Both the position numbers and the translations under genes were made by a program. Under the pieces are notes generated by a model. It was not told where the DNA came from and searched no databases. It worked only from the letters and a program-made list of their open reading frames with translations. DNA of 64,000 nt from the NCBI GenBank assembly GCA_021464415.1, contig CM038471.1, positions 33,391,234 to 33,455,233 of the forward strand, given 5' to 3'. This DNA is from Lonicera japonica (taxonomy: Eukaryota; Streptophyta; Magnoliopsida; Dipsacales; Caprifoliaceae). Positions 26,789-45,304 of the stretch are shown here, piece by piece; the first letter of the stretch is position 1; each line of letters opens with the position of its first letter.

Positions 26789-28324
26789 TGTGAGAATCCG
26801 CAAATGCGACCCCCGGGTCTTGTCCCCGTTCGGTTGGGCGTCTGAAGCGTCGGAACGGATTCCGTCGTTCCATTTGCTGGAGTATTTTTGTTGATTCATA
26901 TCACATGTCCTTATGTTCTATTTCTAGATGCAAAGGGGTTCATTCAGAGTCGCCAATACATTTTACGAGAAAACGGACAAAACAGTTGCATAAGAGAAAA
27001 AACTACAGATAAGCCTTTCTTTACACGTTTGTCTACGAAACCAGGATTCTATAGGGTTCGGAAACTATATTACGGTTTGGGAAGGTGTTAAGCACCCATT
27101 CCGCCCTTTCGATCTCTAGTGGTCTTTTATATGTTTATTCTATGTTGAAAAACTTGGATGCTTTTACTGATAGTCTACTACTTTCTAACTGAAAACCCTA
27201 ATTTCTGGGAAAAACGGGAAAAGGGAGAAAAACCTTTTTGTTCCAAGATCCGATGTTTCGTTTTGAGAAATGTAAATACAAGTGACGAAAGTCATTTTTC
27301 TTTAGAGAGGGAGTTTTCCGTATTATTTCTCGAATAATGACGATTTTCTCGAGTTTTGACTTGTTTTAGAAAAAGTTTGGATCTTTTAGTGGAACTAATT
27401 CAATATGGAATTGGAACTCTTGAGAGGAGTTCTCCCGGACGTATCACAATCTATGAAACAGATAGGATATACTGGGTTTTTAATTCCTAAGTAAGTTTTA
27501 CTGGTCCGGGTTTTGAAAGCAAGGTTTTATCCGGATGGTAACGTACTTACTCTTCTGGTTTTGTAAATAGTTTTATCAGGGTCTTTTATTTTGAAAACGG
27601 TAGACTATTTGTAACTTGGCAATAAGTTTATTCAAATAAAACGTGGACAAAACAACAGAAATAAAACAAGTACACAGATGTTTAATGTTAAATACTTGAA
27701 GAGACTTTCTTTACCTTCCCGACGAGAATAATAATAAGAAAGAAAATATAATACGGCAGAGAGATCTTCGGCAATAATGATCTTTTCCTTCTTTAGATAT
27801 TTCCGAGAATTCGATTCCAGAGACGGGACATGTCAAGTGTCGAGAATAGTTTCCATAATTCTTCAGAAATAAGACGATAATAGAGAATGCTTGATAAAAT
27901 ACTGGAAAATCATATTTAAAGCTTAGAATTCTTCAATCCCAAGTTGCCGCCTTGAACCCTTGGGGGGTGTTGGCCTATTTATACTGCTCGGGAGAGTATG
28001 CCGCGCGACACTTCCCCAAAAAGGGAATTGTCGCGCGACAATGTGTCCAATGTCGCGCGACAAACGGCTGAAGTGATGTTTCTGACAGACTGATGTGTCA
28101 GAGAGTGGATGGTCTGGTGTCAGAAGGGATTGTCGCGCGACATAGGAGTGTTTGTCGCGCGACAATGTGATATGTCGTGCGACAATCTCTATTAAAAATA
28201 GGTTTGTTGGCCGACAAACCCCTTAGGGGTAGTTCCGGGTGCTCGGGTGGATCCCGGTCCCAAAAACAGTAGTTTTTGGAGGTCGTTAGGGTTTGTGCAG
28301 GGGTCACGGATCGGGGTGTCTACA
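26789..28324 (-). mobile_element. 3' LTR of the Tat element (1536 bp)
   Basis: On the minus strand it starts TGTAGACACCCCGATCC after the purine tract GAGTTGAGAGGGTC and ends GGATTCTCACA. The TATA box TATAAATA is at 27983-27976 (minus). Upstream of it are six copies of the TGTCGCGCGACA palindrome (four exact). It differs from the other LTR by mostly single C/T or G/A changes, a few percent by eye. Short open frames within (for example 26888-27091) occur in both LTRs and are not genes. Confidence 0.92.
27999..28216. promoter_or_regulatory. Palindrome cluster in the U3 of the 3' LTR
   Basis: TGTCGCGCGACA is exact at 28029, 28051, 28131 and 28153. There are one-base variants at 27999 (TGCCGCGCGACA) and 28173 (TGTCGTGCGACA), and a related core TGTTGGCCGACA at 28205. 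The nearest copy starts 15 bp upstream of the TATA box on the element's sense strand. The 12-mer is its own reverse complement, as expected for a site bound by a dimer. Confidence 0.8.
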
Positions 28325-28341
28325 GACCCTCTCAACTCAAG
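28325..28341 (-). promoter_or_regulatory. Polypurine tract of the Tat element
   Basis: Minus-strand GAGTTGAGAGGGTC directly precedes the start of the 3' LTR (TGTAGAC). This is the expected position of the plus-strand primer. Confidence 0.65.
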
Positions 28342-28435
28342 CTCCTTGCTTGCAAGGAATTGAGGCAACTGGAAGAGACCATGATCCATGGCTCCCGCAA
28401 GAACTCTAAGGAAGTGTGTATATGCAACAGTGTTC

Positions 28436-43011: not shown

Positions 43012-43766
43012 TTCGGGTGTGCTTGGTCTTACTATTCTTCCGGTATGATCTCAACCGGCCCAACCTTCCAGACTGTCGTCGCTTTACGGCTGTAGATGAA
43101 ACCACGTGGCGAAGATGAAGTAAGACTGTGATGCGACTCGATTTTTGCCAAAAGAAATACTAAAAATTGCTAAGGAAAGCCTCGAATTTTAAAAAGGTGT
43201 TGGAAAGTAAGCCGTAAGGTGGTACATCCCCTACGGCTGTTTGACAAGTGTTTTAGCCGACTCAATCTTATATGCAGCGCAGGTGTACGAACGGTTAAGG
43301 CTTCAGGCTCCCTCCTATTTGGCAAGACCTTGCGATATACCCCAAGGGCGGGTACGTGCAAGAGCCTTTTGATATACTTCCCGGGTACGTGAGTGTTCTC
43401 GTCACTCGATATACCTCAGGGGCGTACTTGGCCAAGGAGAGTGGAAGTAAATGCTTTTGGTTTATGTTGGCCCAAGCAATCCAACTCCCTACTCACTTAT
43501 AATACTTCCGAGGGTTTGGGGTAATTTCACACTTGTAGAACCAATGCATGATTTGTGATAGTGTGTGTAAAGTTCGAAAGGTTGGTTTCACAAATATCAT
43601 TATCTTTATTACGTATTTTTGAAAAACTTCCATTTTTAGAAAAAAGGTTTCTCCTCGAAACAAATTACACAAGTAGGGAAAGTGGTAAAAGCAAGTATTC
43701 AACAGATAAACAAAAAGTCCACATATAAGAGTCTAGTTTTCTAACAGTCCCCAGCAGAGTCGCCAC
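43012..43766 (-). other. 5' leader of the Tat element with primer-binding site
   Basis: On the minus strand TGGCGACTCTGCTGGGGA (43765-43748) follows the 5' LTR by one base; this primer site is typical of Tat-group elements. The leader continues about 740 bp to the gag ATG, without protein motifs. Confidence 0.75.
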
Positions 43767-45304
43767 TGTGAGAATCCGCAAATGCGACCCCCGGGTCTCA
43801 TCCCCGTTCGGTTAGGCGTCTGAAGCGTCAGAACGGATTCTGTCGTTCCATTTGCTGGAGTATCTTTGTTGATTCATATCACATGTCCCTATGTTCTATT
43901 TCTAGATGCAAAGGGGTTCATTCAGAGTCGCCAATACGTTTTACGAGAAAACGGACAAAACAATTGCATAAGAGAAAAAACTACAGATAAGCCTTTCTTT
44001 ACACGTTTGTCTACGAAACCAGGATTCTATAGGGTTCAGAAACTATATTACGGTTTGGGAAGGTGTTAAGCACCCATTCCGCCCTTTCGGTCTCTAGTGG
44101 TCTTTTATATGTTTATTCTATGTTGAAAAACTTGGATGCTTTTACTGATAGTCTACTACTTTCTAAGTGAAAACCCTAATTTCTGGAAAAAAACGGGAAA
44201 ACGGAGAAAAACCTTTTTGTTCCGAGATCCGATGTTTCGTTTTGAGAAATGTAAATACAAGTGACAAAAGTCATTTTTCTTTAGAGAGGGAGTTTTTCGT
44301 ATTATTTCTCGAATAATGACGATTTTCTCGGGTTTTGACTTATTTTAGAAAAAGTTTGGATCTTTTAGTGGAACTAATTCAATATGGAATTGGAACTCTT
44401 GAGAGGAGTTCTCCCGGACGTATCACAATTTATGAAACAGATAGGATATACTGGGTTTTTAATTCCTAAGTAAGTTTTACCGGTCCGGGTTTTGAAAGCA
44501 AGGTTTTATCCGGATGGTAACGTACTTACTCTTCTGGTTTTGTAAATAGTTTTATCAGGGTCTTTTGTTTTGAAAACGGTAGACTATTTGTAACTTGGCA
44601 ATAAGTTTATTCAAATAAAACGTGGACAAAACAACAGAAATAAAACAAGTACACAGATGTTTAATGTTAAATACTTGAAGAGACTTTCTTTACCTTCCCG
44701 ACGAGAATAATAATAAGAAAGAAAATATAATACGGCAGAGAGATCTCCGGCGATAATGATCTTTTCCTTCTTCAGATATTTTCGAGAATTCGATTCCAGA
44801 GACGGGACACGTCGAGTGTCGAGAATAGATTCGATAATTCTTCAGAAATAAGACGATAATAGAGAATGCTTGATAAAATACTGGAAAATCATATTTAAAG
44901 CTTAGAATTCTTCAATCCCAAGTTGCCGCCTTGAACCCTTGGGGGGTGTTGGCCTATTTATACTGCTCGGGAGAGTATGTCGCGCGACACTTCCCCAAAA
45001 AGGGAATATGTCGCGCGACAATGTGTCCAATGTCGCGCGACAAACGGCTGAAGTGATGTTTCTGACAGACTGATGTGTCAGAGAGTGGATGGTCTAGTGT
45101 CAGAAGGGATTGTCGCGCGACATAAGAGTGTTTGTCGCACGACAATGTGATATGTCGTGCGACAATTTCTATTAAAAATAGGTTTGTTGGCCGACAAACC
45201 CCTTAGGGGTAGTTCTGGGTGCTCGGGTGGGTCCCGGTCCCAAAAACAGTAGTTCTTGGAGGTCGTTAGGGTTCTTGCGGGGGTCACGGATCGGGGTGTC
45301 TACA
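43767..45304 (-). mobile_element. 5' LTR of the Tat element (1538 bp)
   Basis: Nearly identical to 26789-28324. TATAAATA is at 44962-44955 on the minus strand. Palindrome TGTCGCGCGACA is exact at 44978, 45009, 45031 and 45111, with one-base variants at 45133 and 45153, and a related TGTTGGCCGACA at 45185. The outside target copy is ACTTT (45305-45309). Confidence 0.92.

Follow-up and report, generated by a model that had tools for sequence, protein, structure and literature searches.

A 12-bp palindrome common to the predicted sense and antisense promoters of a Tat retrotransposon family in Lonicera japonica

VANDALs are MULE DNA transposons. In the VANC/VANDAL anti-silencing system of Arabidopsis, a short word recurs in the non-coding DNA of a single transposon family that itself encodes the candidate regulators, and the arrays differ between related copies; the retrotransposon described here resembles it in each of these respects (PMC5735166, PMC10398659; statements from the literature in this report refer to the available portions of the papers cited). 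Published work already covers the antisense accessory genes of Tat elements, whose function was called unknown and for which regulation was suggested (PMC7264820, PMC11963269), and, in the maize element Grande, the transcription of such a gene from its own promoter (PMC7264820). Here we describe a Tat-type long terminal repeat (LTR) retrotransposon at 26789-45304 of a 64,000-nucleotide stretch of Lonicera japonica DNA (assembly GCA_021464415.1, contig CM038471.1, positions 33,391,234 to 33,455,233; hereafter the window). Two antisense genes, one PMD-like and one DUF7745-like, lie on the plus strand between pol and the 3' LTR. The 12-bp self-complementary word TGTCGCGCGACA forms a real array that is common to the sense and antisense promoters of this family.

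Scanning of the window recovered 11 exact and six one-mismatch copies of TGTCGCGCGACA, every one of them inside the retrotransposon, and this recount agrees in number and place with a preliminary description made from the sequence. The comparison with shuffled sequence that the description called for gave a mean count of 0.01 and a maximum of 1 over 100 dinucleotide-preserving shuffles, and among the palindromic 12-mers of the window the word is outnumbered only by two AT runs. Two extra matches appeared when two mismatches were allowed. One, at 47110, lies in an old sister LTR, where decayed forms had been noted; the other, at 62232, is unrelated. Across the 886 Mb and 967 contigs of the host genome there are 29,561 exact sites, against a single site for the reversed control and about 14 expected by chance from the base composition of the window. 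The first 50 sites on contig C1 were located in the U3 of an LTR (38), upstream of a PMD-like gene (nine) or upstream of a DUF7745-like gene (three), with none elsewhere; this sample is positional, being the start of the contig, rather than random, and was ascertained through the word. Confinement to these three contexts, as originally proposed, is therefore true of the window and of 50/50 sampled sites, and the possibility that the word is as frequent in unrelated promoters found no example outside the family among the same 50. A further element on this contig (L045-L047), with the layout LTR-PMD-DUF-LTR, carries 8, 3, 2 and 7 sites, respectively, at no more than one mismatch.

Copies of the family were also collected through coding sequence alone. 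A search with the start of the DUF7745-like coding region yielded 1,791 first-look candidates, of which 40, the window copy among them, were scored matches; with PMD exon 1 there were 1,804 candidates and again 40 scored matches, including the window copy and L064. At least one upstream site (two mismatches or fewer) was present in 39 of the 40 DUF7745-like genes; 35 had at least two sites, 32 had an exact site and 39 had a TATA box. The remaining copy, L015, has its start codon about 17 bp beyond the end of a family LTR, and this LTR contains nine palindromes. PMD-like genes likewise had an upstream site in 39 of 40 cases (all 38 fetched promoters plus the window copy), with three sites in 34 of the 38 fetched promoters; in the exception, L064, the promoter is gone within a 143-bp loss. 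Both antisense genes thus bear out the expectation that the word would precede them elsewhere in the family. Palindrome number is above the usual in one DUF7745-like promoter (L052) and below it in four PMD-like promoters (L077, L082, L088 and L096).

For eight elements chosen through the DUF7745-like gene, the stretch 4.0-7.6 kb upstream was read for the U3 and the PMD promoter. An LTR was recovered in six of the eight, always with six sites and with TATA 15 bp away, and a PMD promoter in five, always with three sites. The gap to TATA is 11 bp in four of these promoters; the fifth (L061) carries TATATAAC, which falls outside what the TATA scan scored. Nothing in the upstream stretches of L059 and L065 matched the element. 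P0001, an annotated Lonicera macranthoides protein, has an N-terminus (MGLSRDTS...VCRATNR...FFAINTP) that reads as translated promoter DNA: its codons are compatible with both palindromes 32 nt apart and with TATAAATA, with some bases left free by the amino acids. The start of P0001 seems to have been annotated upstream of the true gene start, and its N-terminus is consistent with, though not proof of, such a promoter sequence. No other annotated protein with translated promoter DNA was found by the LTR frame, and residues 1-60 of P0001 matched only P0001.

The position of the word relative to the predicted TATA boxes is nearly fixed. Of 19 matches to TATAWAWR in the element, only four, with the LTR box counted twice, have TGTCGCGCGACA within 30 bp upstream; the closest of the others is 166 bp from a copy. 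The nearest palindrome had been placed 11-27 bp upstream of TATA, and the measured gaps are 15 bp (LTR), 11 bp (PMD) and 26 bp (DUF7745-like). All three predicted promoters are marked in this way, the sense promoter on the minus strand and both antisense promoters on the plus strand, as had been described. Conservation of the gap across copies, which the preliminary description left to be checked, is near-constant within each promoter. Among the U3s scored it is 15 bp in 13 of 14 and 16 bp in one, a count that leaves out the old sister LTR, where the TATA pattern used finds no box; in coding-ascertained U3s it is 15 bp in 6/6. For PMD it is 11 bp in all 36 scored copies of the 38 examined, and for the DUF7745-like gene it is 26 bp in 25 loci, 25 bp in two and 27 bp in two (29 loci measured of 30). 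Spacing between the sites is similarly regular, at 30 + 23 bp in 33 of 38 other PMD promoters and at 32 bp in 25 of 26 DUF7745-like loci with two sites. Helical phasing of the sites was considered and rejected: spacings of about 21 and 31 bp hint at it, but R was 0.58 at 10.5 bp (p 0.067). A scan of periods peaks at 9.7 bp (p 0.02), which is a hint only.

Sequence conservation was compared between sites and their spacers, with the reservation that aligning identical 12-mers may inflate the figures for the sites. In 12 motif-chosen U3s (pairwise identity 0.77-0.98, two from one element), palindrome columns were conserved at 0.963 and spacers at 0.820. Masking one exact site per U3, which offsets the selection, left 0.952 versus 0.816 (Mann-Whitney p at most 1.5e-7 across ten draws). 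In the five PMD promoters ascertained through the DUF7745-like gene, the corresponding values were 0.978 and 0.835 (p 1.4e-5). CpG transitions account for 76 of 112 substitutions in the sites (15/30 DUF, 34/46 U3, 27/36 PMD), many of them inherited by several copies, and this share fits the decay of methylated cytosines.

We tentatively propose that a single dimeric regulator, predicted to be a PMD-family protein encoded by the element, would bind TGTCGCGCGACA and so switch the three promoters jointly. Protein binding is suggested because the word is a perfect two-fold palindrome retained as an array, and a dimer because this perfectly two-fold word occurs in arrays. An element-encoded protein is put forward because all sampled copies of the word lie in the family that carries both PMD-type genes, and it is preferred to a host factor, itself nearly as likely, because of the parallel with VANC targets in VANDAL transposons. 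The symmetry of the word would account for its occurrence at promoters of opposite orientation. According to this model, a PMD-family protein of the element would bind TGTCGCGCGACA as a dimer at the LTR, PMD and DUF promoters; the bound factor would open, or repress, transcription of the genomic RNA and the accessory genes simultaneously; and, in acting on its own genes, the regulator would create feedback. The full form of the proposal is slightly more doubtful than either of the single-factor accounts: a family-run regulon in which an antisense-encoded PMD-family protein may act on about 30,000 identical palindromic operators scattered over the host genome, with the LTR promoter, the protein's own gene and the sister gene under its control in a VANC-like anti-silencing or feedback circuit whose symmetric operator would suit promoters of both orientations.

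Several observations weigh against regulation by a protein of the element. The excess conservation of the sites is weaker in some sets of copies: 0.975 versus 0.938 in U3s ascertained through the DUF7745-like gene (p 0.004), and 0.972 in 37 closer PMD copies, compared with 0.947 for spacers (p 0.012) and 0.931 for the leader (p 0.06). In these 37 copies, the stretch from the last site to TATA is conserved at 0.865 and that preceding the first site at 0.832. The DUF promoter shows no excess in 28 copies, with 0.967 for the sites and 0.957-0.977 for neighbouring segments. CpGs within sites are only slightly better preserved than other CpGs, at 0.906 versus 0.851 in the 28 DUF copies and 0.891 versus 0.848 in the U3s. 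Judged from these alignments, the pattern is that of young copies descended from masters that retained the sites. In the window copy the PMD-like gene has no single open frame and the DUF7745-like gene has one internal stop, although relatives of the latter without interruption exist. A structure model of the DUF7745-like protein built from seven sequences had a mean predicted local distance difference test score (pLDDT) of 42.7, too low to show a DNA-binding fold. Lastly, TGTC within the word is the auxin-response core, which leaves room for a host factor.

Alternatively, the word may be bound by a transcription factor of the host, be it ARF-like, E2F-like or a dimer not yet described, which the element would use to fire its three promoters in one set of cells; this account has a substantial, if less than even, chance of being correct. 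Host-factor use is frequent among plant LTRs, and we count this in its favour. The CAMTA CGCG box has the consensus VCGCGB and the E2F site the consensus TTTSSCGC. The word misses the former by at least one base and the latter by one base at best, which by symmetry means one per half (position 2); the suggestion in the preliminary description of a CAMTA or E2F-like binder is not supported by these matches. Each half is nevertheless only one base off TTTSSCGC, and transposons have amplified E2F sites in Brassicaceae (PMC12595863). The T that E2F would call for at position 2 is, however, almost absent from the family: it occurs at none of 78 U3 sites and at no DUF site, and the 38 PMD promoters together contribute a single case. 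The ARF element TGTCNN is matched with zero mismatches (TGTCGC), with TGTC on both strands of the word, and TGTCGC reporters give expression domains in Arabidopsis roots (PMC10690724). Read as an ARF site, TGTCGCGCGACA is an inverted repeat of spacing 0, whereas the favoured spacing is 7 or 8 (PMC10690724). A host factor must also contend with the absence of the word outside the family at all 50 sampled sites, which come from the start of one chromosome.

It is improbable that the palindromes are passengers with no role in binding, carried by a U3 block that was duplicated to places ahead of the antisense genes and then multiplied as the element was copied. The 10-mers flanking the internal sites do resemble those of the U3 (p 0.003 right, 0.0009 left), and blastn aligns the PMD upstream block with the U3 over about 70-77 bp, palindromes included. 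Repeat slippage would give the third site at the same 32-bp step in L052 and the loss of one site each in L082 and L096, and the young DUF copies show little extra constraint. Once the sites are masked, however, any similarity among the three promoter blocks is not clear (six comparisons, p 0.047-0.59); in U3 and PMD the sites and their spacing persist although the spacers have diverged, and passenger copying is further opposed by the near-constant TATA gap of each promoter. A role of the array as a methylation trap or as a target of host silencing, in place of an activator site, is very unlikely, for although each word has three CpGs and its changes are mostly CpG transitions (76/112), such a target should tend toward loss and the sites are instead kept, with up to nine in some U3s.

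The remaining features of the element are collected in Table 1. Its LTRs (1536 and 1538 bp) differ by 41 mismatches, 36 of them transitions (Kimura two-parameter distance 0.0273), and it is flanked by the 5-mers ACTTC (26784-26788) and ACTTT (45305-45309), a target-site duplication whose two copies differ at one position. The pol frame 36147-38261 encodes, in order, RT_RNaseH (residues 9-80), RVT_3 (132-249) and an integrase core (420-516). A second RNase H (aRH) in pol marks the Tat clade (PMC6317226), and because one precedes the integrase here the element is assigned on domain order to that clade (OTA, Ty3/gypsy), RVT_3 being equated with aRH on our own reading. The product of the PMD-like gene matches PF10536 at 34.0 bits (E 2.3e-8), just below the curated cut-off of 34.9; a PMD extra open reading frame is present in 57% of Ogre elements (PMC6317226). 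The best protein match of the DUF7745-like gene is a Lonicera macranthoides protein, 93% identical, and P0002, which is 43% identical to the DUF7745-like protein, passes the DUF7745 profile (27.8, cut-off 26). Antisense TRP28 (PF04195), the Retand-type hallmark, gave no match at E 0.1 when eight antisense pieces were scanned, and the viral contigs contained neither relatives of the DUF7745-like protein nor the paired palindromes. A 68-bp tandem array fills the predicted PMD intron (30372-31620), and copy L045 has a longer one. Beside the 3' LTR, 97-bp tandem repeats at 28388-28957 contain an open plus-strand frame of 177 aa and lie downstream of a weak TATA-like stretch beyond U3 site 6. Elsewhere, the window contains a Copia-type gag (7111-8604, minus strand), a Kelch-repeat (FKB95-like) open frame (14841-16103, minus strand), a large near-perfect foldback (53817-56218; 756-nt arms, 99% complementary, with four more nested arm pairs) and a separate reverse transcriptase fragment (59626-60567, minus strand).

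Table 1. Features of the retrotransposon and the adjoining old LTR, in window coordinates. Copies of TGTCGCGCGACA starting at 27999, 28173, 29930, 34554, 45133 and 45153 have a single mismatch; the other sites listed are exact.
Feature	Coordinates	Strand	Details
Six palindromes, U3 of 3' LTR	27999..28184		Starts 27999, 28029, 28051, 28131, 28153, 28173; word scan
Six palindromes, U3 of 5' LTR	44978..45164		Starts 44978, 45009, 45031, 45111, 45133, 45153; word scan
Three palindromes upstream of PMD-like gene	29900..29964		Starts 29900, 29930, 29953; word scan
Two palindromes upstream of DUF7745-like gene	34554..34597		Starts 34554, 34586, 32 bp apart; word scan
Predicted TATA box, sense (LTR) promoter	44955..44962	-	TATAAATA, 15 bp from nearest palindrome; counterpart 27976-27983 in other LTR
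Predicted TATA box, PMD-like gene	29976..29983	+	TATATAAG, 11 bp from nearest palindrome
Predicted TATA box, DUF7745-like gene	34624..34631	+	TATAAATA, 26 bp from nearest palindrome
3' LTR	26789..28324	-	LTR comparison; gag-pol on minus strand
Antisense PMD-like gene	30110..34206	+	Predicted exon 1 30110-30371, predicted intron 30372-31620, then 31622-34206
Antisense DUF7745-like gene (PMD superfamily)	34672..35927	+	Frames, domain and protein searches
pol: reverse transcriptase (RT), RNase H, second RNase H (RVT_3), integrase	36147..39789	-	Two overlapping frames; domain search
gag (PF03732)	41968..42684	-	Domain search
5' LTR	43767..45304	-	LTR comparison
Old sister LTR	45850..47262	-	Decayed palindromes in places of sites 1, 2 and 4 (alignment); two-mismatch match 47110

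No report of a word common to the LTR and accessory promoters was found in the literature searched, a coverage outside which most subscription papers fall. The 12-mer was met in a single paper, on chicken PRMT4, and the 10-mer in nine papers, none of them on plant promoters judged by title. DUF7745 gave no literature match, and the lists of papers returned for Ogre with palindromes and for PMD with retrotransposon named nothing on a shared promoter word. The shared 12-bp word gives the suggested regulatory role of the accessory genes a concrete target. If a protein of the element binds it, self-regulation comparable to that known from DNA transposons and some retroviruses would extend to plant LTR retrotransposons, and sites bound by a selfish factor would number in the tens of thousands in the host genome.

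In foamy viruses, one element-encoded DNA-binding protein, Tas, acts on the LTR and on a second, internal promoter, which is the logic proposed here; the foamy-virus internal promoter is sense-directed, unlike the antisense promoters of this family. Grande gene23 and the genes of Retand are likewise antisense, lie between pol and the 3' LTR and have been proposed as regulators, but no word shared with the LTR promoter is reported in the available portions of those papers, and most Retand clusters carry TRP28 where PMD and DUF7745 are present here (PMC7264820, PMC11963269). PMD-family proteins are tied to a short promoter motif in the MAIN/MAIL1/PP7L 'DOWN' system as well, although the genes concerned there are host genes and direct binding is a hypothesis only (PMC7156037). 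Compared with VANC and its targets, the differences are that the VANDAL words YAGTATTAY, AGTTGTCC and AGTTGTAC are non-palindromic (PMC5735166, PMC10398659) whereas TGTCGCGCGACA is palindromic, and that the element described here is an LTR retrotransposon in which binding is predicted.

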